Origin: Microtetraspora malaysiensis
GTDB taxonomy: Bacteria; Actinomycetota; Actinomycetes; Streptosporangiales; Streptosporangiaceae
Direction: 5' to 3'
Assembly (NCBI RefSeq): GCF_001528665.1
Contig: NZ_BBYJ01000018.1
Coordinates: forward strand, 124,001-188,000
DNA: 64,000 nt
In this document: positions 1-32,332 of the stretch, piece after piece
Numbering within the stretch: position 1 is the stretch's first letter
Layout of the letters: each line of letters begins with the position of its first letter
Notes under the pieces: model-generated
What the model was told of the DNA's origin: nothing
The model's input: only the letters and a program-made list of their open reading frames with translations
Database searches by the model: none
Position numbers and translations under genes: made by a program

Positions 1-1591
1 TGTCACCGGACGCGGTCCACGCCTTGTTGAGGTAGCACACGAGGCGGGACAGGTCGAGGACGTTCGTGTAGAGGCCCGCGGCGGCCGACTCCGGATAGCG
101 GTTCCGCTTGCCGGAGATCACCGCGCCGGTGGTGGTGTGCCCCGACGCGAGCTCGAACGTCGGAGCCAGCGCGTACGAGCTGGTCTTCATGCCGAGCGGC
201 GCGAGCACCTCCTTGTCCATGTACTGGGCCAGCGACAGGCCGGTCTGCTGCTCCACCATCCGCTGCAGCAGCACGAACCCCGCGCCGGAGTAGTGGTACT
301 CCGCGCCCGGGTCGGTGGTGAGCTCGATCTTCGGTGAGTTGCCCTCGCCGTTCATGACCTGGAGCAGCGACGGCACGGTCGCGTTCGGCCCGTAGCCCGC
401 GAAGCCGCCACCCGCGGCGGCGTTGAAGCCGGAGCAGACGTCCGCGGGAGAGGTGGAGCCGCGCCCGATGACACCGGCCCGGTGGGTCAGCATGAGGTCG
501 ATCGTGGGCACCGCGTCGGGCGACACGCAGGAGCGGCTGGGCAGGGTCCAGCCGAGGAAGGGGCGGATGTCGCTGCTCAGCGGCTTCTTGAGCGTCTGCA
601 TGAGGCGCAGTACACCGACCGACGCGACGGCCTTGCTGATGGAGGCGGCCTGGAAGCCGGTCTCCGGGTGCGCGGCGGCTCCGCTGCCCGCCTCCAGCCA
701 GCCGTAGCCGGTGGACCAGGTGATGCGGTTGCCGGTCACCACCGCGATCGCCACGCCCGGCGTCTTCCAGTAGCCCATCCGCTGCCAGATGCCCCCGCTT
801 CCCACCGAGTCCTCGACCTGGCGCACCCGGTCGGCGGGCAGGGCCGGAACCTTGCCGCGTGAGCACAGCGACCAGCCGCCGGTCGGCGAGAAGGTGACAT
901 TGTGCAGCTGCCAGCCGCCCGCGGAGAGCTTGCCCATCTGCTGGTAGCACTCGTCGTCGACGCCGCGCGCGTGGAACTCGTCCTGCGCGACGACGGCCCA
1001 CCCGCCGCCACGGGGGAAGGCGACGTGGGTGACGCGGCGTCCGCCCTGCGTCAGGTTGCGCATCATCTGGTAGCACTCGTCGTCGATGCCCCGGACGTAG
1101 AAGCCGTCCGTGTCGACCACCGACCAGCGGTTGCCGCCCGCCGGGGGGAAGGCGACGTTGACGACCTGCTTGCCCGCGCCGTAGCAGGCGGTGATCCGCT
1201 GCTGGCACTCCGCGGGGATGCCGCGCGCGGACACCCCCTTGTCCGTGGTGATCACCCACCGGTCGCCGCCCTCGGGCGGGAAGGCCACGCAATGGATCTT
1301 CCGGCCGGCCTTGGTCAGCTTCCCGAGCTCGGCGTAACACGCGTCGGGGACGCCGCGCGCGAAGAAACGGCCGTCCTGGGTGACGATGACCCAGCCGTTG
1401 GACGGCGCGAACGCGAACGAGGTGATGCCATAGGGCGCCAGCTCACCCATCTTCGTGTGGGCCTCGTCCGGTACGCGACGGTTGAAGTAGGGGTAGCTCG
1501 CCGCCCACGCCGGCTGGCCGAACCCCACAGCGGCCAGACCGGCGCCGGCTCCGGTGGCGGCGGTCAGGCTGAGAAAACGTCTCCGGTCCAT
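1..1591 (-). CDS. Secreted serine hydrolase (beta-lactamase/PBP-like) with N-terminal repeat domain, partial
   Basis: The 3' end lies outside the window; about 530 codons are visible. The ATG at 1591 follows GGAGGAG. Residues 3-9 (RRRFLSL) and the alanine-rich stretch after them form a twin-arginine signal ending near PAWA. Residues ~34-265 hold about five copies of a ~48-residue unit with the pattern (R)G-(V/I)-P/D-x-(A/E)-C-Y...VAFPP.GG..WV. The C-terminal domain is beta-lactamase/D-alanyl-D-alanine carboxypeptidase-like: S317-I-S-K320 fits the SxxK nucleophile motif and a Y-S-G motif follows. The repeat-plus-hydrolase fusion suggests an exported enzyme held to a cell-wall or extracellular ligand by the repeats (inference). 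Substrate unknown. Confidence 0.88.
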   Translation of the reverse strand, partial: MDRRRFLSLTAATGAGAGLAAVGFGQPAWAASYPYFNRRVPDEAHTKMGELAPYGITSFAFAPSNGWVIVTQDGRFFARGVPDACYAELGKLTKAGRKIHCVAFPPEGGDRWVITTDKGVSARGIPAECQQRITACYGAGKQVVNVAFPPAGGNRWSVVDTDGFYVRGIDDECYQMMRNLTQGGRRVTHVAFPRGGGWAVVAQDEFHARGVDDECYQQMGKLSAGGWQLHNVTFSPTGGWSLCSRGKVPALPADRVRQVEDSVGSGGIWQRMGYWKTPGVAIAVVTGNRITWSTGYGWLEAGSGAAAHPETGFQAASISKAVASVGVLRLMQTLKKPLSSDIRPFLGWTLPSRSCVSPDAVPTIDLMLTHRAGVIGRGSTSPADVCSGFNAAAGGGFAGYGPNATVPSLLQVMNGEGNSPKIELTTDPGAEYHYSGAGFVLLQRMVEQQTGLSLAQYMDKEVLAPLGMKTSSYALAPTFELASGHTTTGAVISGKRNRYPESAAAGLYTNVLDLSRLVCYLNKAWTASGD

Positions 1592-17094: not shown

Positions 17095-17513
17095 CGGTGT
17101 CCTCCATAGCATTCGGCGAAGGCTGCGCGGGCGCGCCACAGAGCGGTTTTGATCGACGAGACGGAGCGACCGGTCATCGCGGCCACCTCCGCCAGGGAGA
17201 ACCCGTCGAAGTAGACGAGCGTGAGCAACTGTCGCTGCCGCTCCGGCATGCGGTCCAGCACGTCGCGGACCGCGATGGCGTCCGAGGTGAGCTCGGGAAC
17301 GCCCAGAGCGTCAGGAGAGGGCAGCGGGAGGGAGATCCGGCTGCGCCGTACATGGTCGAGGAGGACGTTGCGGGCGATGGCGAGCAGCCACGCGGCCGGG
17401 GAATTGCCGCGCCAGCCGAGCATCGCGCGGGTGGCCTTGACAAACGTCTCCTGAGCAAGATCTTCGGCGAGATGCGGGTCACGGGTCTGGCGCATGAGAT
17501 ATCCGCAGACCAA
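17091..17513 (-). CDS. ECF RNA polymerase sigma factor with damaged 5' end
   Basis: Region 2 (DPHLAEDLAQETFVKAT) and region 4 (RQRQLLTLVYFDGFSLAEVA then GRSVSSIKTALWRAR) are clear. TTG 17513 is the only available start, but it would cut off the first helix of region 2. Without any start, the same frame reads on upstream as FAEDAIGSRIEQFYREHWPL to about 17570, up to a stop at 17592-17594. A GTG at 17587 in the neighbouring frame would join this frame if one C were added in the run ACACCCCGTT. So the gene is probably frameshifted near its start. Anti-sigma partner downstream. Confidence 0.68.
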   Translation of the reverse strand: MVCGYLMRQTRDPHLAEDLAQETFVKATRAMLGWRGNSPAAWLLAIARNVLLDHVRRSRISLPLPSPDALGVPELTSDAIAVRDVLDRMPERQRQLLTLVYFDGFSLAEVAAMTGRSVSSIKTALWRARAAFAECYGGHR

Positions 17514-17777
17514 GGGCCAGTGCTCCCGATAGAACTGCTCGATGCGGCTGCCGATGGCGTCCTCCGCGAACGGGGTGTTGTTGTCACACCACTACAGACG
17601 CAACCATCCGCCCGATGGTCACATCCGAATTCGTACGCCGGCACCGGCCGGCTGTCTTCAAGATCCACCCATGGTCGGCATTATCCGTATCTCGCCAGTG
17701 CAGTGCTGGATCCGATTCACGCGGCTGATGGACCTCTCGACGGTCCACTCGCCAGCAACCGCAGCAACCTACTTGCC

Positions 17778-18057
17778 TTACGTGCCTGACAGGCCTTCAA
17801 CCGGCTGACCAGCAGCTTCGCTTGACAACCCTAGATAACGATGGACGCCGGCGTCCCTCCACTGCCGGAAGCGGTTGTGGACGGTCGGCCAGGCGCCGAA
17901 CTCCCTCGGCATCTCCCGCCACTGCGCGCCCGTCTTGAACTGCCAGATCACGCCCTCGAACTGCTGTCGCAGCCGCTCGGGGTACGGGCCGAGCCCGCCG
18001 ATTGGCAGGTACGGCTCGATGAACTCCCACTCTTCGTCTGTTAACTGGACTCGCGTT
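17778..18057 (-). pseudogene. IS5-type transposase N-terminal remnant
   Basis: The minus strand reads VQLTDEEWEFIEPYLPIGG, then RLRQQFEGVIWQFKTGAQWR, then FGAWPTVHNRFRQWRDAGV, the conserved N-terminal (DUF4096-type) domain of IS5-group transposases. The usual start is GTA rather than GTG, and after residue ~75 the sequence loses similarity and stops at 17778. The DDE catalytic domain is absent. Confidence 0.8.
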
Positions 18058-18334
18058 ACACAAGACGACCTATCGGATCAGGCCTCGCCATCCGGGCGAA
18101 GCCCGCAGATTGATCACAATCCGATACGCGCGCTAGGACGCCTTTCGGAAGAGGGCAAGGTCCACCGTTATTGCCCGGAGCCCCCTACTTCCTTCACGAA
18201 GCCAGCGAAATGCCCGCAGTCCTCGCGGTGTCCGTGGCGAGGGCCGCCCTACCTGGGACAAGCAGGGGAGTCCGACAGGCCATCCATCAGGCCGAGCATG
18301 GCCAGGGCCAGGTCTCGGACCAAAGACGTCTTCT

Positions 18335-18901
18335 TCAGGGATGTCCGGGGGAGGGAGTCTCCGGTGGAGACGACGCTGTACGCCCTACGGCTGGCGCCGC
18401 CTTGTGAAGTACGTGGCGCACTGTCGCTTCCAGCGAGCTGTCCTCGCCGATGATCGTCTCGCAGCCGTCCGGAAGCAGGTCCCGCTCCTGATACCACCGT
18501 CGCATCTCTTCGGGGGTGAACTCCCGCCGCTGAGGGCGGGTGGCATGTCGGCGTACGGTCTCCGGCCACGACACGTCCAGGTAGAAGAAGGCGTTCGTTC
18601 CCGCATGATCGTGGCTCAGCGCGTGAAGCATCGGCCCGTACCGGCTGGCGGTAAGGATCCCCTCGAGAAGGACGTGGTACCCATGATCGAGGGCGTAGCG
18701 GACGATGGTGTCGATGAGGCCGATATTCACCCCGCCTGGAACGTCCCGCTCCCGCAGCAGCTCTCGCCGCACTGTGTCTTGGCCGACCAACGCCAGGCCG
18801 CGCCCACAAGCTTGCCGTACGGCCCGCGCCACGCTTGTCTTTCCGGCGCCCGAGTTGCCCCGAAGAACGATTAAGCAGGTCTGAGCCGAGCCAGTACGCA
18901 C
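18335..18901 (-). CDS. P-loop kinase-like protein
   Basis: A 188-residue AAA/zeta-toxin/gluconate-kinase-like P-loop protein. GNSGAGKTS near residues 15-23 is the Walker A motif; a central region VLLEGILTASRYGPML and a base-rich lid segment (ETVRRHATRPQRREF) follow. GTG 18901 is preceded by GGGAGG. It would phosphorylate a small molecule or nucleotide sugar; no specificity residue can be assigned. No antitoxin gene is adjacent, so the zeta-toxin reading is not supported by context. Confidence 0.82.
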   Translation of the reverse strand: MRTGSAQTCLIVLRGNSGAGKTSVARAVRQACGRGLALVGQDTVRRELLRERDVPGGVNIGLIDTIVRYALDHGYHVLLEGILTASRYGPMLHALSHDHAGTNAFFYLDVSWPETVRRHATRPQRREFTPEEMRRWYQERDLLPDGCETIIGEDSSLEATVRHVLHKAAPAVGRTASSPPETPSPGHP

Positions 18902-19087
18902 TTCATATCCTCCCGACCGATTGTGCCTCGCAAATCCCTGTCTGACAGAGGCGTCCGTCAGACGACGGGGGGCCGCCCGGCCATCGTCAGGCGGACGCCG
19001 GCCGCCCACCCCTGTCGGACAACCATGGGGCGAAGGAACGGCAGGAGGGTCCTGCGGCCTTGAACACGTGCACGCGAGGTTCGGTCA

Positions 19088-20497
19088 TCACGCACTGCCC
19101 TCCTGGACGGAAGCACGATCTTGCTGGAGGAGCCACAGGTCGCGGAAGAGCCCGGGGTGGGACGTCAGTTCGCCGAATGTGCCTTCGGCGGTCACGCGCC
19201 CGCTTTCCATGACGACGATCCGGTCGGCGACGATCGTGTTGGCGAGGTTGTGCGTGACCAGCACGATCGCGCGGTCCCGCGCGAGCTGCCGCAACCCGGA
19301 GAAGATCCGGTGTTCGGCTCGGGCGTCCAGGTCGGAGGTGGGCTCGTCCATCACGAGCAGGCCGGCGTTGCGGTGGATCGCCCGGGCACCGGCGATGCGC
19401 TGCCACTGTCCCGAGGAGAGGGCCTGGCCGCCCCACCATTCACGCGCCAGCAGCGTGTCCAGGCCGCTGCGCAGGACGCTGATCACCGTGTCGGCCCCGC
19501 TGGCGGCGGCCGCCCGCCGTACGGCGTCGTCCACCTCGGGCTGGGGCTGGCCGAGGTGGATGTTCTCGCGGGCGGTCATCGGCCAGCGGGCGAACTCCTG
19601 TGGCACGACCGCGCACCGCTTCCACAGGGCGTGCGGGTCCAGGTCGCGAGTGCTGACGCCGTCCCAGGCGACCACGCCGGAGGTCGGCAGGTTGAGCCCG
19701 GACAGCAGCTTCATCAGCGTCGTCTTGCCCGAGCCGTTCTCGCCCACCACGGCGACGATCTCTCCCCGCCGGACCTCGAAGTCCACCTCGCGCAGGGTGT
19801 CGTGATCGGCCTCCGGATAGCGGTAGGTGACGCGGTGGAGGGCGACGTGTTGAGGACGTCCCGGCACGATGTTCCCCCGGTCCAGGCGTTGCCCGGCCGC
19901 CTCCCGGATGAAGGACTCCCAGTCGTCCATGTACCGGCCGGTGCGCATGAGATCGGCTCCATAACCGACGATGCCGTACAGGCCACGGGAGGCCGAGCGC
20001 AGGGTGAAGACGAGAGTGCCGGCGGCAGCGGCGCTGATATGTCCGATGCCGAGCAGCAGCATCACACCGGCCCACATCAGCGCCGAGGCGAGGCCGCTGA
20101 CGGCGGCCCCCATCAGGTTGATCCTCGCGCGCTGCCAGGCGGCCTGGTCATTGGTACGGTCCACTCGCACGCCGCTGGCCCGGTATTTCTCCAGCAGGTA
20201 GGGGGCCAGGGTGTCGGTGCGGATCTGGTCGGCCTGGTCCTTGTGGGTCAGGTGCCAGCGCAGCATGTTCAGCATGCGGCGGTCGTGGAATGTTCTCACC
20301 GTCGCCAGGTAGGTGATCCTTTCGCCCGCGATGGACGCCACGGCCTGGGGCACCGCGGTCAGTGCGAGCAACGGCAGCAGGATCGGAGCCAGCGCGGCGA
20401 TGACCACGGCCGCGGCGATCAAAGTGGCCGCCGAGGAGACCAGGTTCTGCGACTGGCCGATCATGTCCCGGCTGACCTCGACTCCCCGGTCGGCCAT
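19088..20497 (-). CDS. ABC exporter (TMD-NBD half-transporter), 5'-truncated
   Basis: A 469-residue frame. The NBD is complete: Walker A GENGSGKTT, Q-loop in VVPQEFAR, signature LSSGQWQR, Walker B LLVMDEPTSDLD and H-loop VTHN. The TMD part lacks the first ~130 residues of a normal ~600-residue exporter. In-frame sequence upstream of ATG 20497 still reads as exporter (GRHPFAYDHPGFNDRYDM) up to about 20545, then is lost next to the divergent response regulator. Likely the stub of a broken gene, though the NBD remains intact. Confidence 0.72.
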   Translation of the reverse strand: MADRGVEVSRDMIGQSQNLVSSAATLIAAAVVIAALAPILLPLLALTAVPQAVASIAGERITYLATVRTFHDRRMLNMLRWHLTHKDQADQIRTDTLAPYLLEKYRASGVRVDRTNDQAAWQRARINLMGAAVSGLASALMWAGVMLLLGIGHISAAAAGTLVFTLRSASRGLYGIVGYGADLMRTGRYMDDWESFIREAAGQRLDRGNIVPGRPQHVALHRVTYRYPEADHDTLREVDFEVRRGEIVAVVGENGSGKTTLMKLLSGLNLPTSGVVAWDGVSTRDLDPHALWKRCAVVPQEFARWPMTARENIHLGQPQPEVDDAVRRAAAASGADTVISVLRSGLDTLLAREWWGGQALSSGQWQRIAGARAIHRNAGLLVMDEPTSDLDARAEHRIFSGLRQLARDRAIVLVTHNLANTIVADRIVVMESGRVTAEGTFGELTSHPGLFRDLWLLQQDRASVQEGSA

Positions 20498-20656
20498 GTC
20501 GTAGCGGTCGTTGAAGCCGGGGTGGTCGTAGGCGAACGGGTGCCTCCCTGTCCTCGCGGATCGCCGGCGGCGACGAGGGCCCCGTCCCGGCCGTACCGCA
20601 CGGCTCCGATATCGGGATCATTGGGGCGGACATCTGCGTAGCGGAGGGGGGCGGAC

Positions 20657-21265
20657 GTGATCAACGTGTTGCTGGCCGAGGACATGCATCTCATCAGGGG
20701 GGCGTTGGCCGCGCTGATCGAGTTGGAGGACGACATGCGGGTCGTCGGCGAGGTGGCCACAGGGGAGGAGGCGGTCGCGCGGGGGGTCGAGTTGCGTCCC
20801 GAGGTCGTGGTGCTGGACATCCAGATGCCGGGGCGGCTGGACGGCATCGCGGCGGCGGAGGAGTTTCGGGCGCGGGCGCCGGAGTGCGCGCTCCTCATGC
20901 TGACCTCGGCGGGGAGGACCGAGACGCTTCGCAGGGCGCTCGCGGCCGGGGCGCGTGGCTTCATGGTGAAGGACGCGCCGCCCGCCCGGCTGGCCGAGGC
21001 GATCCGGCGGGTCGCCGCGGGCGAGTCCGTCATCGATCCGAGCCTGGCCGCGGCGGCCATCACCGAGCGGCCGAACCCGCTGACCCCGCGCGAGGCCGCG
21101 GTCCTGCGCCGGGCGGGGGAAGGCGCCGACCTGGCCGAGATCGCGGCCGGCCTGTTCCTGAGCAAGGGGACGGTGCGGAACTACCTCGGCGCGATCGTCA
21201 CGAAGCTAGACGCGCGCAATCGGCTCGACGCTGTCCGCATCGCCGCCGAGAACGGCTGGATATAG
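20657..21265 (+). CDS. NarL/LuxR-type response regulator
   Basis: A 202-residue protein with an N-terminal receiver (acidic pair E8-D9, phospho-acceptor D54 in VVLDIQMPG, K in FMVKDA) and a C-terminal LuxR HTH (LTPREAAVLRRAGEG, then GLFLSKGTVRNYL). The partner kinase is the convergent gene whose 3' end overlaps this one by 60 bp. Divergent from the truncated ABC exporter gene, which such systems often control. Confidence 0.93.
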   Translation: MINVLLAEDMHLIRGALAALIELEDDMRVVGEVATGEEAVARGVELRPEVVVLDIQMPGRLDGIAAAEEFRARAPECALLMLTSAGRTETLRRALAAGARGFMVKDAPPARLAEAIRRVAAGESVIDPSLAAAAITERPNPLTPREAAVLRRAGEGADLAEIAAGLFLSKGTVRNYLGAIVTKLDARNRLDAVRIAAENGWI

Positions 21266-22894
21266 GACGGTCAGCCGGTACTCGCCGCCGTCGCTCTCTG
21301 TGGTCAGGGTGCCGCCCGCGGCGGCGACCCGTGCGGTGAGATTGGCCGTTCCGCTGCCGGTTCCCCGGGCGGCACGGGCGCCGTCGTTGACGACCCGCAG
21401 TCCGGTCGGGGTGATGTCGATGAGGCAGTACGCGGCGTCACTGTGCCGCAGCACGTTGGTGACGGCCTCGCGCAGGACGATCGCGAGCAGCGTGTCGTCC
21501 CGCCCCGACTCCCGGCGTACGGTGACCTCGACGCCCGCCGCCTCAAGGACAGCGCGGGCCGAGTCCAGCTCGGCGGCCAGCGACAGCCGAGGGTCGGGCT
21601 CGGCCGGGATGGCGCGCAGCGCGGCCAGGGATCGGCGGGCGATCGCGGCGATCTCCGCGAGCTGTTCTCCGGAGCCCTCCGGCCCCAACCGTCCGGCCAG
21701 CTCGGCCTTGACCGTGATGGCGGAGAGCCCGTAGCCGAGGAGGTCGTGGACGTCGCGGGAGATGCGCCTGCGCTCGTCGGCCGCGGCGAGCGCCGCCAGC
21801 GCGCGCTGCGCCTCCTTCGCCTCGAAGACCAGCGCGGTCTGCGTGGACAGCCCGTAGAGCATGGCCGCGATGGCGACGGCGTTGAACGTCCAGTACAGGT
21901 TCTCGGCGGGGGAGTAGCCGCGGAGGGCGAGTACGGCCGACAGCGACGCGACGACCACTCCGGCCAGCGGCCACCAGGCCCGCCCGAAGATCAGGAACCC
22001 GGCCGCGGCGAACCCGGCGAGCTGCGGATAGGCCTGCCCCGGATACAGCAGCGTGACGGCGGTGAGCAGGACCAGCGCGGCGGCCGTCCAGGCGGCGTGC
22101 CGTGGTCGCGCGCCGGGCGGACGCGGCAGCGCGTGGTGCAGCTGCAACCCGAGGATCCCCGCGGCCAGCAGCGAGGGCGCGGGACGCCCTTGAAGGTAGA
22201 TCAGCGAGGTCGCGAGGTACCCTGCGTGCACCGCGACCAGGATCGGCAGCGCCAGCCGGGGGGTGAGATCCGGCTCGGGCGCGGGCTCGCCCGTCGCGCT
22301 CGGGACGGCACGCGCCCGCGCGGCCGCCGACCGGGAGACCTCGGCGATCCGCGCCGCGTCACCGCGCCCGGCGAGAGCGATGATCGTGGACAGGATCGTT
22401 CCGAGGGCGGCCTCCAGCTCGCGTGCGGCCCGTGACCGCTCGGCGGAGACCGCACTCGCGGCGAACGGTGCGCGTGCGGCGTGGACGGCGGCGCGCGTGT
22501 CGCCGAGCCGGGTCACCCCGAACAGGACGAGCCCCTGGCACGCGGCGTTGAGCACCGCGAGCGCGATCCCGAACGGCGTCGCGGGCGCGAGAAGGGCCGC
22601 CGCGGCGACCACCGCCCCGAACAGGCACCAGCGGGCCGCCCCGCGCAGGACGAGCAGCGCCGACGCCGCGACCATGCCCGCCGCGGCCGGCCCCGCCCAC
22701 GGCAGGAGCAGGGTCTGGGCCGCCAACGGCCAGCGGCTGCGCCACGGAGTCAGGCAGTACACCAATTGGAGTGCGAGAACGAGGGCGAACGGCGGGCTCG
22801 GCACCGGATGGAGCGGATCCACCGCGACGCCCAGGAGAACCACCAGAACGATCAGCACGTCACGCACCATATGTCGTGATCGTGCATTCTCCAT
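21206..22894 (-). CDS. DesK/NarX-type sensor histidine kinase with duplicated core
   Basis: A 562-residue protein. ERRRISRDVHDLLG (His383) is a HisKA_3 dimerisation/phosphoacceptor motif, and the C-terminal HATPase domain has REAVTNVLRHSDA (N box) and GTGSGTANL. Unusually, an earlier segment at residues 152-200 (ERSRAARELEAALG) aligns with the HisKA_3 block and has Glu161 in place of His. Each block follows its own set of membrane helices, so the protein looks like two tandem sensor halves, the first without kinase activity. ATG 22894 is chosen; 22870 is possible. Confidence 0.88.
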   Translation of the reverse strand: MENARSRHMVRDVLIVLVVLLGVAVDPLHPVPSPPFALVLALQLVYCLTPWRSRWPLAAQTLLLPWAGPAAAGMVAASALLVLRGAARWCLFGAVVAAAALLAPATPFGIALAVLNAACQGLVLFGVTRLGDTRAAVHAARAPFAASAVSAERSRAARELEAALGTILSTIIALAGRGDAARIAEVSRSAAARARAVPSATGEPAPEPDLTPRLALPILVAVHAGYLATSLIYLQGRPAPSLLAAGILGLQLHHALPRPPGARPRHAAWTAAALVLLTAVTLLYPGQAYPQLAGFAAAGFLIFGRAWWPLAGVVVASLSAVLALRGYSPAENLYWTFNAVAIAAMLYGLSTQTALVFEAKEAQRALAALAAADERRRISRDVHDLLGYGLSAITVKAELAGRLGPEGSGEQLAEIAAIARRSLAALRAIPAEPDPRLSLAAELDSARAVLEAAGVEVTVRRESGRDDTLLAIVLREAVTNVLRHSDAAYCLIDITPTGLRVVNDGARAARGTGSGTANLTARVAAAGGTLTTESDGGEYRLTVLYPAVLGGDADSVEPIARV

Positions 22895-22952
22895 GCCGGC
22901 CCATGTGTCAGACACTGTCGAGGTGCGAGGCCCGCGCCGCACACTGACGGCC

Positions 22953-24791
22953 ATGAAGAAAGCGATCATCGCGGCCCTCGCCGTCCTCGCCCTCCACACC
23001 GCCCCCGCTCACGCCGATGACCTCGGCACGGCGATCGACCGGGCCGTCCCCGCCGTCCTCGCCGAAGACAAGATCCCGGGCGCGGCCGTCGTCGTCGTGG
23101 AGAACGGGAAGACGGTGTTCAGCAAGGGCTACGGGCTGGCGGACGTGGGATCGGGCCGGCCGGTCGACACCGCCACGCCGTTCCTCACCGGCTCGCTGGC
23201 CAAGGTGTTCACCGCCGAGGCCGTCCTGCGCCTGGTCGGGGAGGGCAGGCTCGACCTGCGCGCCGACGTGAACCGCTACCTGACGGCGTTCAAGATCGAC
23301 GACACCTATCCGGGCCGTCCGGTGACCTTGGAGCACATGCTCACCTACACAGCGGGCTTCGACGACGACATCGTCGGCCTCGCCCGTGAGGATCCGGCGA
23401 CGCTGCCCTCACTCGCCGAGAGCCTCAAGGCTCGCCAGCCGCGCCGGGTCCGGCCACCGGGCACCCTGATCGCCTACGACAACTACGCCCTCGCCCTCGC
23501 GGGCCACCTCGTCGAGGTGGCGTCAGGCGAACCGTACGCGCAGTACGTCGCCGAGCACGTCTTCGCCGCACACGGCATGACCGGCTCGACCGCCGCCCTC
23601 CCGCACCCCGCCGCGATCGGGGCACGGCTCGCCCGCGGCTACCGCCCGGACGGCGACGGCTACGCCGAGCAGAAGGGCCAGTACAGCCCCTGGACGCCCT
23701 CCGGCACCGGCCCCGCCGTCACCCCCGCCGACATGGCCCGGTACATGATCGACCAGCTCAAGGGCGATCCCCTTGCCCGGCAGATGCGGGCACGGCACTT
23801 CACCGCTGACCGGCGCATGCCCGGCATGGGCTACACGCTGGAGGAACGACCGCGCAACGGCCGCCGGATCCTCTACAAGGACGGCGACGTCCCCGGCTAT
23901 CACAACGCCATGGCCCTCATGCCGGACCAGAGGTTCGGCGTCTATGTCGTCTTCAACGGCGACGGCACATCCGGCGCCGCCGCCTGGGACGCGCAGAAGC
24001 TCCTCACCCAGATCATCGACCGGCGCTTCCCCGCGCCCGCCGCCTCCGCGCCCACCCCGCTCACCGCGGATGTCTCCCGGTACGCCGGCTCCTACCGGTC
24101 CGCCCGTACCAGCCGCAGCAGCCTGATGAAGGCCTCGACCCTGTTCGTCGTCCCGACCGTCACGGCCAACCCCGACGGCACCCTCACCACCACCGGCCTC
24201 TCCCCGGATCCCGGCCGATGGACCCAGCACTGGATCCAGATCGCCTCCGGCGTCTTCCGGGAACGCGACGGCCAGGCCCGCATCTCCTTCCCCGGCGACG
24301 GCACCCTCGTCTCCTCCGCTCTCCCCTCGGAGGTCTACGAGGAAGTCCCCTGGTACGACGCCCCCACCCTGAACCTGCCGCTCTTCGTGACCGGCGCCCT
24401 CGCTCTGCTCCTCGCCACCCTCGGCCTGCCGCTGGCCGCCGCCGTCCGCCGTGTCCGCAAGGTCCGCCCACCGCTCCCGGCCCGCCTCGCCGCCCTCGCC
24501 GCTTGGATCAGCGCCGCCCTGGCCACCGTCTTCCTCGCCGGGTTCGCCCTCCTCATGGCCGACCCCAACGTCCTCATGGCGGCCCTGCCGCTGAACTCCC
24601 CACGCCTCGCCGCGCTCCCCGTCCTGGCCACCCTCGCCCTGGCCTTCGCCGTTCCCATGGTCCCGGCCACCGTCGTCGCCTGGCGCGCCCGCTGGTGGAG
24701 CCTGCCCTCCCAGATCGCGTACACCTTGCTCGCCCTGGCGGCGGTCGCCTATTTCGCGGTCGCCCTCGGTTACCACCTGCTGCTCTTCTGA
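22953..24791 (+). CDS. Membrane-anchored serine hydrolase (beta-lactamase/PBP4-like)
   Basis: A 612-residue protein. Signal peptide MKKAIIAALAVLALHTAPAHA; serine hydrolase domain with the SxxK motif SLAK (TGSLAKVFTAEAV) and the YxN motif (AYDNYAL). The C-terminal ~150 residues contain about four hydrophobic segments, which should anchor the enzyme in the membrane. The catalytic domain therefore faces outside, where it would act on peptidoglycan peptides or other esters/amides. It is divergent from the sensor kinase and 87 bp upstream of the selenoprotein candidate. Its specific substrate is unknown. Confidence 0.88.
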   Translation: MKKAIIAALAVLALHTAPAHADDLGTAIDRAVPAVLAEDKIPGAAVVVVENGKTVFSKGYGLADVGSGRPVDTATPFLTGSLAKVFTAEAVLRLVGEGRLDLRADVNRYLTAFKIDDTYPGRPVTLEHMLTYTAGFDDDIVGLAREDPATLPSLAESLKARQPRRVRPPGTLIAYDNYALALAGHLVEVASGEPYAQYVAEHVFAAHGMTGSTAALPHPAAIGARLARGYRPDGDGYAEQKGQYSPWTPSGTGPAVTPADMARYMIDQLKGDPLARQMRARHFTADRRMPGMGYTLEERPRNGRRILYKDGDVPGYHNAMALMPDQRFGVYVVFNGDGTSGAAAWDAQKLLTQIIDRRFPAPAASAPTPLTADVSRYAGSYRSARTSRSSLMKASTLFVVPTVTANPDGTLTTTGLSPDPGRWTQHWIQIASGVFRERDGQARISFPGDGTLVSSALPSEVYEEVPWYDAPTLNLPLFVTGALALLLATLGLPLAAAVRRVRKVRPPLPARLAALAAWISAALATVFLAGFALLMADPNVLMAALPLNSPRLAALPVLATLALAFAVPMVPATVVAWRARWWSLPSQIAYTLLALAAVAYFAVALGYHLLLF

Positions 24792-24878
24792 GCCGTCACC
24801 GGGCAGCTCCGGTGATCAAGGCCCCGGCCGTCATCCGCAGCCCCGTTTCCCGCGGGCTGTCGGGGGCACGCAGACGAT

Positions 24879-26270
24879 GTGGAAACGGGGGAACCTCCTG
24901 GCGGCGCGTGCGAGGTCGACCTCGCGCACCGGATCCTGGCCCATATACCCATCGGGCGAGGGCCGGAGGCGGTCGTGGTCGACGCGGCCGCGCGGCGCGC
25001 CTTCGTCGCCTGTTCCCGCAGCAACGCCGTGGTGGCGGTGGACCTCGACCGGCGCCGGACGGAATGGCGGTCCCCGGTCGGCCGGGAACCGATCCCCGTC
25101 GTCCTCGACCTGCCGGCCCGGCGGCTGTTCACCGCCGACGCCCGCTCGGACACGGTCACCGTCGTGGACGCGGACAGCGGGACCCGCCTCGGTCAGGTAC
25201 CCGTCGGCGCTTATCCGGCAGGGCTCGGCCACCATCCCGGGCTGCGCCGGGTCTTCAGCGGAGACACCGCCGCCGGCACCGTCACCGCGCTCGACGCCGA
25301 TCACGCACGAGTGATCGGGACCGTTCCCGCGGAACTCGGCGCCGGCAGCATCGCGGTGGACACCAGCCGCGACCGGGCGTACTGCGCCAACTTCATGTCC
25401 GCCTCGGTCACCGTCTTCGACGCGGCGACGCTCCGGCCGTTGGGCCGGATCGCGGTGCCCGAGGGGCCGTGCAAGGTCGTCGTCGACCCGGTCTCCGACC
25501 GGCTGTACGTGGCCGGATCGCTGCACGGCACGATCACCCGGATCTGCCTGCGGACCGGCGCGAACCTGGGCGAACTGGTGGTCGAGCGGGCCCCGGTCGG
25601 GATGTGCGTGTCACCGGACGGCCGATGGCTGTACGTCTGCAATCGAGGGGCCGGCACCGTCAGCGTGCTCGACACGCTTCGCGGGAAGGAATCACATCGC
25701 ATCGCCGTGGGCGACGGGCCCGGGGACTGCGCGCTGGACCCGGTTACGGGCCGGCTGCTGGTGTCCAACGCCGGCAGCGGCACGCTGACCATCGTGGACC
25801 GGCCGTGGCTGCCCGGGCCGCCGGCGCGCGCCCTCCATCCGGTGGTCGGCCACCCGTTGCCCGAGTTCGCGCTCCCGGACCTGCGGACCGGGCGGATCCG
25901 CACCACGCGGGAGTGGGCGGAGAAGAAGTACGTCATCAACTTCTTCGCCAGCTGGTGAGGCCCCTGCAACGCGGAGGCGCCGGTCCTTGAGGAACTGCGC
26001 CGCCGTACAGCCCGGTCGGGGCTGGACGTCATCATGATCAATGTATGGGAGAGCGTGGACGCCGCCACCGAAGCGCGCCACTTCGCCGATGTCTGGGGCC
26101 TTGACGGCACCGTGCTCCTCGACGAGACCGGTGAATATGCGGCACGACTCGGAATCCATGGAGTGCCCACCAACGTGTTCGTCGACGCGAACGGGGTTGT
26201 GCGCACAGTGGGCGCGACGAGGCCGGACGAGCTGAACGCGGCGGTCGAGGCTCTCCTGCGGCAGTCATGA
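24879..26270 (+). CDS. YVTN beta-propeller/TlpA-like thioredoxin fusion, candidate selenoprotein (in-frame UGA = Sec360)
   Basis: Reading through TGA 25956-25958 gives 463 residues. Residues ~15-325 are YVTN-type propeller blades (VDAAARRAFVACSRSNAVVA-like strands repeating about every 42 residues). Residues ~330-463 are a TlpA/AhpC-TSA-like thioredoxin domain: KKYVINFFASW, UGA, GPCNAEAPVL, later the cis-Pro loop GVPTNVFVD (Pro430). The UGA falls exactly on the first Cys of WCGPC and the resolving Cys363 is kept. The frame after it is open for 103 codons with conserved family sequence. GTG 24879 is the only start in the open frame; no signal peptide. Alternative: a single-base nonsense mutation of a Cys codon. 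Confidence 0.85.
25972..26005 (+). promoter_or_regulatory. Candidate bacterial SECIS hairpin
   Basis: Starting 14 bases after the UGA: CGG-A-GGCGC pairs with GCGCC-G-CCG across an A/G mismatch, and above a small internal loop GUCC pairs with GGAAC (one bulged A), closed by the loop UUGA at 25987-25990. The loop lies about 29 bases after UGA, within the range seen for bacterial SECIS. The loop lacks the usual early G, so the identification is tentative. A second possible stem, 25960-25967 with 25971-25978, sits directly after the UGA. Confidence 0.45.
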
Positions 26271-26276
26271 TCAGCG

Positions 26277-26294
26277 GCCGGGTGCGCGCCCGGC
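26277..26294 (+). terminator. Short hairpin after the selenoprotein candidate
   Basis: GCCGGG pairs with CCCGGC across a 6-nt loop, 7 bp after the final stop codon. No T run. Confidence 0.35.
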
Positions 26295-26450
26295 GCCACT
26301 GGCGGCCAACGGGGTGATCCTGCCGCGCGTGACATACGTACGTACGCGGTGTCGCGACCGCCGACGTCTCGGAAGAGCACACCCGTTGAGTCGCACGAAT
26401 GATCGCGGGGCCGATTGCCGGAAGGCGAGATCGCCGGGGGTGCTCAGGGG

Positions 26451-27632
26451 TCACCAGGTGACGGGCAGGGCGGTCAGGCCGCCGGCCAGCACGTTCCTAT
26501 TGAACGTCAGCTCGTCCACCGCGCACCCGAGTTTGAGCGTGGGAAAGCGGGCGGCGAGCTGGGCGAAGACCGTCTGCAGCTCGATGCGGGCCAAAGGGGC
26601 GCCGACGCAGTAGCGGGCGCCATGGCCGAAGGTCAGGTGCGGCACGGCCGGGCGGACGAGGTCGAAGCGGTCGGGGTCGGCGAAGACGGCCCGGTCGTGG
26701 TTGGCGGCGCCGGTGTCCAGCAGCACCAGATCGCCGGCCCGGATGTGGACTCCGGCGATTTCCAGGTCGGTGCGGGCGTAGCGGGGGATGCCACCGCCGC
26801 CCAGACGGGGTGCGCGCAGGATCTCCTCCACCGCCGCGTCGATCCGCGACGGGTCGTCCACCAGGGTCTGCCACTGGCCGGGAGTGGCCAGCAGCCACAG
26901 CGTGCCCATGCCGATCGCGGTGACCGTGGTCTCGTGCCCGGCGAACAGCAGGAACATGCCCATCGCGGCGGCCTCGTCGTCACTGACCCCGTCAGTGGCG
27001 GCCAGCCGGGAGATCACATCCGCGTCCGGGTCCCCTTCGGCCCGTTTGCGCGCCACCAGCCGCTGCCCGTAGCCGAACAGCTCGGCCAGCCCCTGCTCGG
27101 AGCGTGCCCGATCGGTGGTGTCCGCGGCGGCCTGCGTCCATCGCCGGAACTGGCCGCGGTCGGCGAACGGCACCCCGAGCAGCTCGCAGATGACGGCGAT
27201 CGGCAGCGGCAGCGCCAGCGCGGCGTGCAGGTCGGCGGGCGACCCGGCGGCATCCAGGTCGTCCAGCAGGCTCGCGGTCAGTGTCTCGACGCGGCCGCGT
27301 AGCGCGCGCATCCGCTTGGGCGAGAAGTGCGGCTGCAGCAGCGAGCGCACCCTGTGGTGGTCGGCCCGCTCGGTGTCGAAGTCGCCCAGCGGGCCGCCGA
27401 ACATCGCCGACTCCCCGGTACGCGAGGCGCGCTCGGGCTCGCGGTGGGCCCGGCCGAGACGGTCGTCATCCAGTAACTGGCGCACCTCCTCATAGCCGGT
27501 CACCAGCCACGCCGGGTGGCCGACCGCGGTACGGATCGCGTGGATGGGGCCGCTGGCCTGCAGCTCGCGCAGCAGCGGCGCGGGCCGCATGGGATGGGGC
27601 TGTTCGAACGGTAGCTGGACGGGGGCGGACAT
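26451..27632 (-). CDS. Cytochrome P450
   Basis: A 393-residue soluble bacterial P450. The heme loop FGHGARYCVGAPLAR (Cys342 ligand), the I-helix AGHETT (oxygen activation) and the ExxR helix (EEILR) are present. ATG 27632 follows GGAGGAGCC. It needs external ferredoxin and reductase, not found here. It is divergent from a TetR gene with operator-like repeats between, so it is likely induced by the repressor's ligand, possibly its own substrate (inference). Confidence 0.95.
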   Translation of the reverse strand: MSAPVQLPFEQPHPMRPAPLLRELQASGPIHAIRTAVGHPAWLVTGYEEVRQLLDDDRLGRAHREPERASRTGESAMFGGPLGDFDTERADHHRVRSLLQPHFSPKRMRALRGRVETLTASLLDDLDAAGSPADLHAALALPLPIAVICELLGVPFADRGQFRRWTQAAADTTDRARSEQGLAELFGYGQRLVARKRAEGDPDADVISRLAATDGVSDDEAAAMGMFLLFAGHETTVTAIGMGTLWLLATPGQWQTLVDDPSRIDAAVEEILRAPRLGGGGIPRYARTDLEIAGVHIRAGDLVLLDTGAANHDRAVFADPDRFDLVRPAVPHLTFGHGARYCVGAPLARIELQTVFAQLAARFPTLKLGCAVDELTFNRNVLAGGLTALPVTW

Positions 27633-27650
27633 GGCTCCTCCATGAGGTAG

Positions 27651-27696
27651 ACGCTCATTTGTATACTCTGACGTCTAAAACGCTATATGTATACTC
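27651..27696. promoter_or_regulatory. Direct-repeat operator between P450 and TetR
   Basis: Two copies of ACGCT-N4/5-GTATACTC, at 27651-27668 and 27680-27696, each contain the palindrome GTATAC. They lie between the divergent starts, in an AT-richer stretch that probably holds both promoters. Confidence 0.6.
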
Positions 27697-27719
27697 CTGC
27701 TTCTACAAGCGGAGGTGGG

Positions 27720-28337
27720 ATGGACAACCCGGAAGAAGGCGTCGATAGGGCCGTGGCGGCCCAGCCGGTGCGGCGGCTGCGTCGCGCCGAACGGCGCGAG
27801 CAGATCCTGGACGCCGCCACCCGCGCCTTCGCCCGCTCCGGCTACACCGCCACCGGCCTCGACGACATCGCCGCCGAGGCTGAACTCACCCGGGCGATGC
27901 TGTACCGGCACTTCGACTCCAAGGCCGACCTGTATCGGGCCGTACTCGACCGCGCCTGCACTCGCCTGGCCGAGGCTGTCGGCACCGACGACTTCGACGG
28001 CGACGCCATCCCCGCCCTGCTACGCGCCGCCGCGGTCGACCCCGACGGCTTCAGGCTGCTGTTCCGCTACGCCGTCCGTGAGCCCGACTTCCGCGACATG
28101 ATCGACTCCATCACCGCCGCCTCCCACGAGGTCGCCCGCCGCACCCTCTCCCGCCGCATTCCGGAGGGTCCATGGCTGGACTGGGCCGCCAACCTGCTCC
28201 CCACCTTCACCCTGGAAGCCGTCATCGCGTGGCTTGACGCCGGCCGGCCCGATCCCGATCAGGCCGCTGAGCGGATCAGCCAGGCCGTGCACGGGGTCAT
28301 GGCCGCAGCTCATCCCGCCCGCCAAAAGGAACTTTGA
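27720..28337 (+). CDS. TetR-family transcriptional regulator
   Basis: A 205-residue protein; ATG 27720 directly follows GGAGGTGGG. The HTH covers ATGLDDIAAEAELTRAMLYRHFDSK, and the C-terminal helical ligand domain has no clear family label. Divergent from the P450 and flanked by its probable operator, it is the likely P450 repressor. Confidence 0.9.
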   Translation: MDNPEEGVDRAVAAQPVRRLRRAERREQILDAATRAFARSGYTATGLDDIAAEAELTRAMLYRHFDSKADLYRAVLDRACTRLAEAVGTDDFDGDAIPALLRAAAVDPDGFRLLFRYAVREPDFRDMIDSITAASHEVARRTLSRRIPEGPWLDWAANLLPTFTLEAVIAWLDAGRPDPDQAAERISQAVHGVMAAAHPARQKEL

Positions 28338-28349
28338 CGGTCTGTTCCG

Positions 28350-29027
28350 TTGGTCGCGCTTCATGACGGGCCGCTGGCCGGAGATGGCGTCGTGGTGCGA
28401 CTTGTCGGCGGGCACCGCCTACGCCTACAGCGTGCCGCCCTTCGCGCGGTGGACATCGGCGAGTCCTCCACGGTGTGGATGCTGTTCCTGTACGGAGCCG
28501 GCGCCGTGCTCGGCAACCTCGCCGCCGGGTACGCCACGCTCCTGAACCAGGTCCGAGGATGGTCGTTGGCCGCGCCATGCCCCCATGGGGATGCCGTGCT
28601 GAGTGAGGCGCTGGCCGCGGGCGCCGACTGGGTGCGCCGGCCCACCTTGGAGAAGTCGCTCATGCGGCCGGCCCCTCCTGTTTTCGGCACGGGGGACGGG
28701 AATCTGGCGAACTACCTTTGGGATGGCAGCGATCTTCGCCTGGTGGACTTCGAATACTCCGGTCGAAGCGATCGCGCCTTTGAACTGGCGGAGGTAGTCG
28801 AGCACATCTCCGTACGTGCCAGTCGTTCAGGCATGACACGCGTGTTGGAGCGTTTCGAGCTGAGCGCCGCCGAGCTGCGCAGATTCAGAGAGTGCCGCCG
28901 ACTTCTGGCCCTCTACTGGCTATTGAGGATTCCGGCCCACAGCCAGAGGCGACCGGGTGATCGAACGGACATTCTGGCCGAACAGGCGACGTGGGTGCTG
29001 ACCCTGTTGTCGGGACCACACCGGTAG
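28350..29027 (+). pseudogene. Chimeric remnant: MFS fragment joined to aminoglycoside-type phosphotransferase C-terminus
   Basis: The open frame is a composite. DIGESSTVWMLFLYGAGAVL (residues ~36-55) is an MFS transporter helix; its preceding part (GTAYAYSVPPFA) is in the next frame, so a frameshift occurred near 28445. From about 28540 the frame becomes an APH-like C-terminal half: GDGNLANYLWDGSDLRLVDF carries the catalytic-loop Asn and metal-binding Asp, but the N-lobe is missing. Neither part can be functional as seen. Confidence 0.62.
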
Positions 29028-29142
29028 CGCACGCGAGGGAAGACGATCCTGGCTTGCGGCGAAGGGTGAGTGATCGTGTCCATCACCCGGAAGGCAGGCT
29101 TATGTCGGAGCTGAAAACTTGATCATCGGCGCGTGCGAACAG

Positions 29143-29280
29143 GTGACCGACGCCGAACTCGTCGCCCGGTACCGGCGGAACCCTGATTTGTTCACCGACG
29201 TGCACGACCGCTACTACCGCGACGTCTACCTGTACGTGGCCGGCCGGCTGGACACACAGATCGCCGAGGACATCACGGCC
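29143..29280 (+). pseudogene. ECF sigma factor N-terminal fragment
   Basis: From GTG 29143 the frame reads VTDAELVARYRRNPDLFTDV then HDRYYRDVYLYVAGRL and AEDITA, the start of region 2 of an ECF sigma factor similar to the intact one at 57295-57834. At about 29280 the sequence switches to a different gene and frame (subtilase), and regions 3-4 are absent. Confidence 0.68.
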
Positions 29281-30946
29281 CCCGGTCAGCCTCGACCTCG
29301 CCAGTGAGGGCGACGTGCTGAAGCTCTCCACCCAGCGGATCGAGGTGCCCGCCGGAGGACAGGCGTCGGTCACGCTCACCATCGACGCGAACGGCAAGGC
29401 CCCCGGCGACTATGTCGGGACGATCACCGCCACCTCGGGCGATACCGTGATCCGCACCCTGGCGGGCGCGTACGTCGAGCCCGAGTCCTACAACGCCACC
29501 ATCACCGTCATCGGCAAGCAGGGCGAACCGGTCGACCCTAGGAGCGCTGAGATCTATGACGCGACGACCGGGGCCATCGTCGAGCCGGCGTTCAAGGACG
29601 GTGTGGCCACCGTACGGCTCGCCAAGGGCGACTGGAACCTCTCCACCCACATCGTGGAGAGGAGCGGCGTCACCGTCGCCGACTCCCCGCTGCGGGTCGA
29701 TGACAGCGACCTTCACCTGACAGTGGACGCCCGCCAGGGCAAGGCGGCCATGACCACACTCGACGATCCGAGTGCCGAACTTCCGAATTGGTTCGAGTTC
29801 GGGCTGGCCCACGGCGCATGGAACTCATTCGGGTTGTGGGGCGGTGTGGACATCACCAACAGGTTCTTCGTCATTCCCGTTCGGCAGCCAGGTCTGACCT
29901 ACACCTTGAGAACCCTGTGGCTGAGCAAGGACGTGTCTCCCAGCCCCTACGTCTACGATCTCGTTGACCGTCGCACCGGCGGTTTTCCTGACGACCCCAC
30001 CTACAACGCCAGGCAGCAGGATCTGGCGAAGGTCTCCACGACCTACCGGGCCTCGGGAGTGGCGGCCACGGGGACGCCGCTGGCCGCACTGCATATCCCG
30101 GGCGCGTCCTTGATGTCACTGGTCGGCGACATCCCCCTGCCCGGCACGCTCATCCAGTACCGGACCCCCGGAGTGACCTACGAAAGCGGTCTTCAGGTCG
30201 GTACCTCCATGACCTTCGACGGCGGCACGCTCATGAAGCGCGGACAGACCAGCGAAGTCTGGAACGCCGCGGTCACCGGCCCGTCGTTCCTGCTGCCGGG
30301 CGGCAGCCGTACCGGTGACACGCTGACCTTCTCCGCGTTTGGGCTGTTCGCCGACGCGGGCGCGGGCAGAACGGGCTCGGACGCCGCCGCCACCGGCACC
30401 GCCACCCTCGCCAAAGACGGGAAGGTGCTGGCTACCGCGGACATCGCCAACTGTGAGGTCGACCAGACGGAAGAGTGCGAGTTCCACGCCGATCTTCCCG
30501 CCGGGTCCGGCGCCTACACGCTGACCGCGTCGATGCGCAGGCAGGTGCCGTACTCGACGCTCTCCACCGGTGTGGAGTCCGTATGGAAGTTCCGGTCCGC
30601 GACCACGGCGAAGGAGCAGCCGCTGCCGCTGACGGCGGTCCGTTACAGCCCCGCCGGCCTGGATGAGTCGAATCGCGCCAAGCCGGGCAGCACGACGCGC
30701 CTTCCTCTGTGGATCGAGCGCAACCCCGGCTCCGCCGAGGCGGAGGCGACGTCGGTCCGGCTGGAGATGTCCGTCGACGACGGGGCGAACTGGCGCCGTA
30801 TCGCGGTCGTTCCCACTGCTTCGGGATGGACGGCCATGGTGCCGAACCCGCGTACGGCCGGATTCGTCTCCCTCCGCGCGGTGGTGACCGACACGTCGGG
30901 CACCGGCCTGACCCAGACGATCACTCGCGCCTACGCCGTCGGCTGA
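29280..30946 (+). pseudogene. C-terminal fragment of a secreted subtilase-type protein
   Basis: The frame is open from the sigma junction to 30946 and could be translated from GTG 29315 (543 residues). It contains the fibronectin-like and carbohydrate-style C-terminal modules that follow the catalytic domain in the subtilase at 32333-36322: VEVPAGGQASVTLTI-like strand, GEPVDPRSAEIYD versus GKPLNPSTQYVIDVDG, and final domains ending DDGANWRRIAVVP versus DDGATWQPVEVKR. No S8 catalytic Asp, His or Ser is present. A homologous but shorter paralogue or the tail of a deleted protease; secretion signal absent. Confidence 0.66.
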
Positions 30947-30958
30947 CCGACGACCGCG

Positions 30959-31210
30959 TCACGCTTCCCCGGGCCCGGCCTCCTGCCGGCCGGGCCCGGC
31001 TGGAAGTGACTGATCCGGGCGAGGAGCCGCCGGTTCTTCTGCGACAACTCTCACTGCCCGGCAAAGACGTTCGTTGAGCGGATCCCTCATCTGACCAAGC
31101 AGCGTCGGCGGGCTTCGGCGAGGGTGGCCGGCGGCGACACCCGTGACTGGGCGTGTGTTGACCAGGTCCAGGGCAAGGGGTTCCCCGGCCAGGGGGCCTG
31201 GCTCGTTCAT
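30959..31210 (-). pseudogene. Possible ABATE/CGNR-type protein N-terminal remnant
   Basis: ATG 31210 begins MNEPGPLAGEPLALDLVNTR, the start expected for stress-induced ABATE-domain (CGNR zinc finger) regulators. Only this short beginning is recognisable; the following ~60 residues do not align, the CGNR zinc finger is missing, and the frame runs through the terminator. It faces away from the hydrolase at 31295, with a palindrome between. Confidence 0.4.
30969..30999 (+). terminator. GC-rich hairpin terminator
   Basis: CCGGGCCCGGCC pairs perfectly with GGCCGGGCCCGG (12 bp) across a 7-nt loop, 22 bp after the subtilase-fragment stop. No T run. Confidence 0.65.
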
Positions 31211-31236
31211 GTCCTAATGCTACATCGTCGTGTTGA

Positions 31237-31268
31237 CGCGTTAGATTATTGATCGCTATAACTAACGC
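31237..31268. promoter_or_regulatory. Inverted repeat in front of the epoxide-hydrolase-like gene
   Basis: GCGTTAG (31237-31243) and CTAACGC (31262-31268) are a perfect 7-bp inverted repeat with an 18-nt AT-rich spacer, shortly before the start at 31295. It is a likely repressor site in the promoter; its regulator may be the lost remnant gene beside it (inference). Confidence 0.5.
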
Positions 31269-31294
31269 ATCACCTCCGATGAAAGGCATTAGAA

Positions 31295-32176
31295 GTGACG
31301 TTCTCCTTGGTCGCCCGCACCACCCACCGCCACCTCGACGTCGATGGCGTCCGCGTCTTCTACCGCGAGTCGCTGCCCGAGCGGTCCGACGCGCCGGTCC
31401 TGCTGCTCCTGCACGGCTTCCCGTCGGCCTCGCACCAGTTCCGCCGCCTCATCGACGTGCTGGGCACCCGCTACCGGCTGATCGCGCCCGACTACCCCGG
31501 ATTCGGGCACACCGAGGCCCCGGCCGACTTCAGCTACTCCTTCGACCGGCTCGCCGACACCACCGAGGGCTTCGTCCGGAAGCTCGGCCTGACCCGCTTC
31601 GTGATGTACGTCTTCGACTTCGGCGCGCCCATCGGGTTCCGGCTCGCCGAGCGGCACCCCGAATGGATCGCGGGCCTGGTCGTGCAGAACGGCAACCTCT
31701 ACGAGGAGGGCTTGTCCGCCGGAGCCCGCGACTTCATCGCGCTGCGCCCCGACCAGCCCGGTGCCGAGGACACCATCCGCGACCTGCTCACCCTGCCCGG
31801 CACGCGCGGCCAGTACGAGACCGGCGTCGCGGACCCCGAACTCCTCGCCCCCGAGGGCTGGACCCTCGACCAGCACTTCCTCGACCTGCCCGGCCGCAAG
31901 GAGGCCCAGGTCGCGCTCGCCTTCGACTACCACTCCAACGTCGAGCGGTACGGCACCTGGCAGGAGTGGCTGCGCACGCACACCCCGCCCACCCTCATCA
32001 CCTGGGGCGCGAACGACCCGTTCTTCCCCGAGCCCGGCGCACACGCCTACCTGCGCGACCTGGCCGACGCCGAACTCCACGTCCTCGACACCGGCCACTT
32101 CGCCCTTGAGGACCACCTGCCGGGGATCGCCCCGCTCATCGCCGACTTCCTGGACCGAGTGTGGGCCCGGCGGTGA
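31295..32176 (+). CDS. Alpha/beta hydrolase, epoxide hydrolase/haloalkane dehalogenase-like
   Basis: A 293-residue protein. HGFPSASHQFR carries the oxyanion HGxP motif, and VFDFGAPIGFRLA places an Asp at the nucleophile elbow, as in epoxide hydrolases and dehalogenases rather than esterases. DTGHFALEDH holds the catalytic His; NDPFFP the acid. GTG 31295 fits the family start. Probably cytosolic. It ends at a shared hairpin with the convergent subtilase gene. Confidence 0.88.
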   Translation: MTFSLVARTTHRHLDVDGVRVFYRESLPERSDAPVLLLLHGFPSASHQFRRLIDVLGTRYRLIAPDYPGFGHTEAPADFSYSFDRLADTTEGFVRKLGLTRFVMYVFDFGAPIGFRLAERHPEWIAGLVVQNGNLYEEGLSAGARDFIALRPDQPGAEDTIRDLLTLPGTRGQYETGVADPELLAPEGWTLDQHFLDLPGRKEAQVALAFDYHSNVERYGTWQEWLRTHTPPTLITWGANDPFFPEPGAHAYLRDLADAELHVLDTGHFALEDHLPGIAPLIADFLDRVWARR

Positions 32177-32235
32177 GGCGTCCCGCTGTCGGGCTTCGCC
32201 GGCAACTCCGCCGCGCTGACCGCGCGATCACTCTT

Positions 32236-32271
32236 CCCCAGGCTCGGCTTCCTTCCGGGCCGGGCCTGGGG
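32236..32271. terminator. Bidirectional hairpin between convergent genes
   Basis: CCCCAGGCTCGGC (32236-32248) pairs with GCCGGGCCTGGGG (32259-32271), 13 bp with one G-U. CTTCCC and similar flank it. It lies between the hydrolase stop (32176) and the subtilase stop (32333). Confidence 0.75.
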
Positions 32272-32332
32272 AACGGTGCTCAGGCACCAGGACCCGGGGC
32301 GGCGGATGGCCGCCGCCCCGGGTCCGGCCCCG

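Follow-up and report, generated by a model that had tools for sequence, protein, structure and literature searches.

A YVTN propeller joined to a selenocysteine-type thioredoxin domain: a probable selenoprotein family of apparently new architecture in Microtetraspora malaysiensis and other actinobacteria

A gene of Microtetraspora malaysiensis that is ordinarily called as ending at a UGA codon probably encodes a selenoprotein, likely cytosolic, in which a YVTN-type propeller would serve for docking and a selenocysteine (Sec) thioredoxin domain would be re-reduced by a dithiol donor. The gene lies in the window, that is, the whole 64,000-nucleotide stretch analysed here (G000:C18:124001-188000), from a host genome of 8.8 Mb in 53 contigs. 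Its coding sequence (24879..26270, on the forward strand, as are all features given for this gene) comprises 463 residues with Sec at 360; the GTG at 24879 is the sole start candidate more than 335 codons ahead of the TGA in the window, and the terminal stop is a TGA at 26268-26270. The single internal TGA (25956..25958), presumably read as selenocysteine (Sec360), is codon 360 in the context FFASW-TGA-GPCNAE and occupies the first Cys position of the thioredoxin WCGPC motif, as an earlier note on this DNA had described. That note had also considered the partner residues intact, and both Cys363 (25965..25967), the resolving residue of the U-G-P-C motif going by thioredoxin chemistry, and Pro430 (26166..26168), presumably the residue of the thioredoxin cis-Pro loop (GVPTN), were invariant in all 26 full-length members of the family. 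A simple gene finder ended the window gene at the UGA, and an ordinary call of this kind splits the gene into a propeller of 359 residues and an orphaned remainder.

The 26 distinct full-length members, namely the window protein and 25 relatives with 93% down to 45% identity to it, all had TGA in the identical alignment column. The closest named relative found was Microtetraspora fusca (Streptosporangiaceae), at 92% identity. Twelve relatives were initially fetched from the genome collection with six peptide patterns that leave out the UGA site, and 12/12 had TGA at the equivalent codon. A search of the class (394 genomes, threshold 1e-60) yielded one further full-length member, G086 (L042 and L067), and a search of the phylum (396 genomes, 1e-35) yielded G697, found twice (L078, L087) and counted once, together with a match in G169 to the propeller part only (query 14-299). 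The class to which G697 belongs (399 genomes, 1e-35) gave 13 matches, 12 of which, including G697 itself, were full length with one internal TGA. Left out of the 26 were the G169 match and G1039/L099, which is cut by a contig start (query 6-338) and ends before the TGA site. None of the searches of 394, 396, and 399 genomes returned a full-length Cys form at 1e-60, 1e-35, and 1e-35, respectively, thresholds at which more distant forms are possible. The plasmid collection gave no match at 1e-40 and, at 1e-6, 381 records, none of which covered 80% of the query, while phages gave no match at 1e-20. The earlier note had asked whether the UGA column aligns with Cys or Sec among homologues, and had named close relatives without UGA, together with a drifting downstream frame in this strain alone, as evidence against its proposal; the column held TGA throughout and Cys in none, and every member keeps the UGA. 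Chance is excluded because this column is shared by all 26 members, rather than by the length of the open frame, and since every complete relative found keeps the stop signal, the family has the appearance of genuine selenoproteins.

Judged by substitution patterns, the frame downstream of the TGA is under purifying selection. Between 102 and 132 codons were open after the TGA across the 26 members, with TGA always the sole internal stop, so that the proposal of a conserved frame running 103 codons past the TGA in the window gene is borne out by the alignment together with this selection. Ka/Ks over 11 pairs ranged from 0.08 to 0.42 after the TGA and from 0.07 to 0.39 before it, and from 0.08 to 0.46 after it when the first 17 codons were removed; one pair (L009/L014) was clearly higher after the TGA (0.42) than before (0.19). 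We also scored codon entropy at invariant residues with degenerate codons, using resampling that treats columns as exchangeable. Codons +1 to +17 had a mean entropy of 0.28 (10 columns) versus 0.83 (104 others) in 15 sequences, with 0 of 20,000 matched resamplings as low, and of 0.55 (7 columns) versus 0.90 (73 others) in 26 sequences, with 112 of 20,000 as low. Codons -15 to -1 were also low (0.45 in the 15 sequences and, less markedly, 0.72 in the 26), and reduced synonymous variation thus extends beyond the codons downstream of the TGA.

Pfam, NCBIfam, AlphaFold2, and Foldseek all bore out the combination of a YVTN propeller with a TlpA/ResA-like thioredoxin that the earlier note had proposed. 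The thioredoxin domain (residues 315-463; 25821..26267) was over the cut-offs of Pfam Redoxin and AhpC-TSA as well as Thioredoxin, and ResA (4nmu) was the best PDB sequence match of the C-terminal domain (E 2.9e-18). Modelled alone from 26 sequences with residue 360 as Cys, this domain reached a pLDDT of 91.6 and a Foldseek TM of 0.84 against ResA. It has the TlpA-like fold, the GVPxN loop, and a WCxxC-type motif whose first Cys is replaced by Sec. The ResA/TlpA/CcmG oxidoreductases (1st9, 4nmu) align over the full length of the C-terminal domain and share with the window protein a Glu three residues past the second redox residue. In contrast to them, the window protein has Sec in place of the first Cys, a propeller in front, and no recognisable export signal, and it scored 56.9 bits against a cut-off of 170 for the NCBIfam ResA family (NF002854).

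The N-terminal part is a seven-bladed YVTN/YncE-like propeller (residues 18-307; 24930..25799), identified by Pfam (YNCE and Lactonase over cut-off), by TIGR02276 repeats over cut-off, by an AlphaFold2 model, and by VIA-align. TIGR02276 was matched in 15/15 members scanned, and the model of the whole protein, made from 15 sequences, had a mean pLDDT of 91.2 and a pTM of 0.89. VIA-align gave Z scores of about 38 to YncE and to an archaeal S-layer YVTN domain, and the best 50 Foldseek and best 50 VIA-align matches of the whole protein were propellers, a result that does not exclude two-domain matches in the PDB. YncE/YVTN propellers (3vgz, 1l0q) and hydrazine synthase beta (5c2v) are likewise seven-bladed (Z 37-38), but their alignments span the propeller alone, and the window protein falls below the cut-off of the YncE equivalog (46.5 vs 400 bits). 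Propeller residues invariant in 26/26 include Arg47, Glu70, Arg256, and Cys198 (25470..25472), the last of which sits close to where the first strand of blade 5 begins (197-203 in the AlphaFold2 model), while Cys45, which closes strand 40-45, is retained in 25/26. We assume that the usual propeller topology would put Cys198 and Cys45 on the same face. The translations of the window protein and its relatives showed no hydrophobic stretch at the N terminus, which makes a cytosolic location likely.

Downstream of the TGA, a candidate SECIS hairpin (25971..26006; +16 to +51 from the U of the UGA) was predicted, with consensus folds forming a stem. In the named structure, 84.4% of cells were paired, compared to at most 54.7% when the partner was slid by 1-3 columns (26 sequences, 24 distinct). 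The numbers of paired cells and the covariation score were not above those of shuffles; three pairs changed on both sides, a number reached in 34/500 shuffles; and the stretch in the window folded no better than dinucleotide shuffles (z -0.39). The apical triplet of the window gene is GGU at +27..29, while the 12 members from G697's class have GTT (11) or GCC (1). The host's formate dehydrogenase gene (L040, TGA at 522) carries GGU at +22..24, nearer the UGA than in the window gene, and we take +22..24 to be the position of GGU in E. coli fdhF too. Rfam gave no match within 24000-27000. This hairpin would likely act as the SECIS; of the hairpin that the earlier note had invoked for decoding the UGA, the stem is present, but covariation is weak and the distance between the UGA and the apical part is greater than in the formate dehydrogenase gene.

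The host genome encodes the machinery for which the earlier note had advised a search, and whose absence it had seen as decisive against its reading. We found two selA genes, each directly followed by selB, one selD, and two genes for tRNA-Sec (anticodon TCA); of the two selB pieces, one exceeded the cut-off and the other narrowly missed it (238.2 vs 242.25 bits). A third Rfam match above the cut-off as tRNA-Sec was rejected, as ARAGORN makes it a tRNA-Ser. SelA was present in 12/13 other carrier genomes tested and tRNA-Sec in the same 12, and SelB was over the cut-off in G086 and G697; this tally leaves out 11 further members of G697's class, and SelD was scored in the window's own genome alone. 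The one exception was Streptomyces mexicanus (L004, G395), in whose genome no SelA, tRNA-Sec, or SelB over the cut-off was found. Its gene looks intact and retains the TGA. Relaxed selection for want of Sec genes was considered and rejected: at 194 columns that are otherwise invariant, L004 departs 3 times, the lowest count of 13 sequences (range 3-14). Given this lack of excess changes, S. mexicanus may have lost the machinery recently, or the available genome data may have a gap.

The Sec genes of the window's genome are arranged in two sets. One has selA-selB on C5 (L038) and formate dehydrogenase, selD, and tRNA-Sec on C29 (L040), with similar arrangements in M. fusca (L070, L071), and the other has selA-selB-tRNA-Sec on C13 (L039), adjoining a DDE transposase-like gene. 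In L038 (6090-7693), as in M. fusca, DsbA-like and DsbD-TM-like genes are located directly upstream of selA; the DsbA-like gene has a CPFC site and is related, with a score under the family cut-off, to the Rcas_1661 (seleno)lipoprotein family. Near the second set, a membrane-protein frame on the reverse strand (L039:3265-3993) contains an in-frame TGA (SGSV-U-SxNSA), and a relative from Nonomuraea gerenzanensis (L109, TGA at 6040) has TGA at the equivalent residue, near putative selB and selD genes. Both frames showed a hairpin after the TGA in single-sequence folds, run without a shuffle control, and this membrane protein, in a cluster with MauE, is possibly a further new selenoprotein.

These observations bear on three other ways of reading the gene. 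If the UGA were a real stop, the gene would encode a propeller protein trailed by a decaying thioredoxin tail, as in a pseudogene or split gene. The ordinary gene call does end there, and S. mexicanus has no detectable Sec machinery, but a single stop kept in 26/26 and always TGA, with a long open frame beyond it, Ka/Ks past the stop far under 1 for each of the 11 pairs, and invariant active-site residues on its far side leave this reading scarcely credible, and on the conservation together with the Ka/Ks values we reject a decaying tail behind a true stop. Insertion of Cys or Trp at the UGA, through a near-cognate tRNA or read-through, would accommodate a genome like that of S. mexicanus, which appears to be without Sec genes. 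We consider it very improbable nonetheless, as SelA and tRNA-Sec occur in 13/14 genomes tested, the window's own included, the tRNA-Sec there carries anticodon TCA, and the site is the catalytic position listed for Sec in other families in Table 1 of a review (PMC13188914). More room is left for a Sec protein of another function, a redoxin-type peroxidase or redox sensor with the propeller as a signalling scaffold, an idea in line with the Pfam Redoxin and AhpC-TSA matches above cut-offs. However, the W-U-G-P-C site and GVPxN loop are those of ResA/TlpA and not the PxxxTxxU given as the Sec peroxiredoxin motif in PMC13188914, and we regard this function as unlikely.

The genomic neighbourhoods, compared around the 26 loci with flanks of unequal length, provided a potential partner for the thioredoxin-like enzyme that we favour. 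A PDO-like gene was located beside the propeller-thioredoxin gene in 7/26 loci, all from one genus-level group (g332). In five of these loci (L080, L088, L092, L093, L101) it followed immediately downstream in the same orientation, with gaps of 4-6 bases where measured (L080, L093, L101), and in L094 and L102 it came after one opposite-strand gene (gaps 915 and 897). All six PDO genes with a readable site (L080, L088, L089/L101, L091/L102, L092, L094) had an in-frame TGA, VFVTPT-U-PHCPP; in L093 the contig ends ahead of the active site, and L101 has a second, partial PDO copy without the active site. The PDO matched TIGR02187 with an E of 8.8e-46, its 155.9 bits being below the cut-off of 185, and the TIGR02187 family is listed with Sec in the table of PMC13188914. 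A search at E 1e-5 detected no PDO in the genome of the window, the 12 related genomes (L003-L014), or G086. It was present in three of six other genomes searched from G697's class (G994, G1054, and G928, the genome of L093); in G994 and G1054 it was on a different contig from the propeller gene, with one TGA each. An adjacent PDO with its own in-frame TGA suggests a selenol redox relay between PDO and propeller-thioredoxin. Among other neighbours, an MFS transporter gene was in the flanks of 6/26 loci from two lineages (L003:7574-9067, L100:5060-6514, L007, L010, L096, L104; 47% identity between lineages in the one pair compared) and a DMT-family transporter gene in those of 7/26; neither was found in window positions 17000-34000. 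Among 13 loci, the beta-lactamase-family gene that precedes the window gene clustered only with that of M. fusca.

For the Sec thioredoxin with a docking propeller, the motif would make the selenol of Sec360 in the U-G-P-C site the attacking residue, and Cys363 would resolve the resulting selenenyl-sulfide bond. The conserved face of the propeller (Cys198, Arg47, Glu70, Arg256) most likely serves to dock a substrate or partner and would bring an oxidised group, such as a disulfide, to the selenol, after which a dithiol donor would re-reduce the enzyme; in the g332 lineage, the donor is probably the adjacent Sec-PDO (AhpF-N-like). We infer the insertion of Sec at the UGA and a disulfide-reducing direction, the latter because of the kinship to ResA/TlpA and the neighbouring PDO, and a docking surface from the conserved residues; the cytosolic location is likewise a deduction from the translations. 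In a bolder version, which we offer tentatively and hold to be doubtful, this Sec-only actinobacterial family would use the propeller to hold a specific disulfide or thiol substrate over the selenol, with Cys198 taking part in the relay, and in one lineage it would work with a Sec-PDO from the same operon, making a two-selenoprotein electron chain to one substrate.

We then considered the family against known ones. No fitting family was found in NCBIfam (June 2026), where all 20 matches of the window protein except the generic YVTN repeat were below cut-offs. NF041054 (WAxxUGC_long) likewise has Sec in a UxxC-type or nearby site, and the window protein scored 47.5 bits against its cut-off of 300. 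Thioredoxin and propeller presumably also share a chain in NHLRC2-type proteins, with an NHL propeller and the thioredoxin first, the reverse of the window protein. Literature searches, mostly without subscription papers and preprints, found no paper joining a selenoprotein with YVTN and none on a thioredoxin/beta-propeller YVTN fusion. No propeller is named among the 119 families and subfamilies in Table 1 of PMC13188914, so neither that table nor NCBIfam names a YVTN-propeller/Sec-thioredoxin, in agreement with the earlier note, which knew of none. Three entries there, 'Redoxin family protein' (UxxC), 'Thiol-disulfide isomerase-like' (UxxC), and 'UGC-containing TlpA', similarly place Sec in or near a UxxC-type site of a TlpA/redoxin fold, and are set apart by their table descriptions, which name no propeller, rather than by representative sequences. 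In principle, 'Redoxin family protein' could include the window protein, and we therefore limit our claim to a new architecture and not a new kind of enzyme: Sec thioredoxin-fold enzymes were already known, and the propeller architecture is apparently new and Sec-only.

The family thus adds a selenoprotein architecture, propeller plus Sec thioredoxin, to a phylum of antibiotic producers. Several of its carriers are named, cultured actinomycetes, which makes 75Se labelling and knockouts feasible, and the neighbouring Sec-PDO is a concrete candidate for an electron-transfer partner. With no Cys form among the 26 members, selenium chemistry could be required in this family and not optional.
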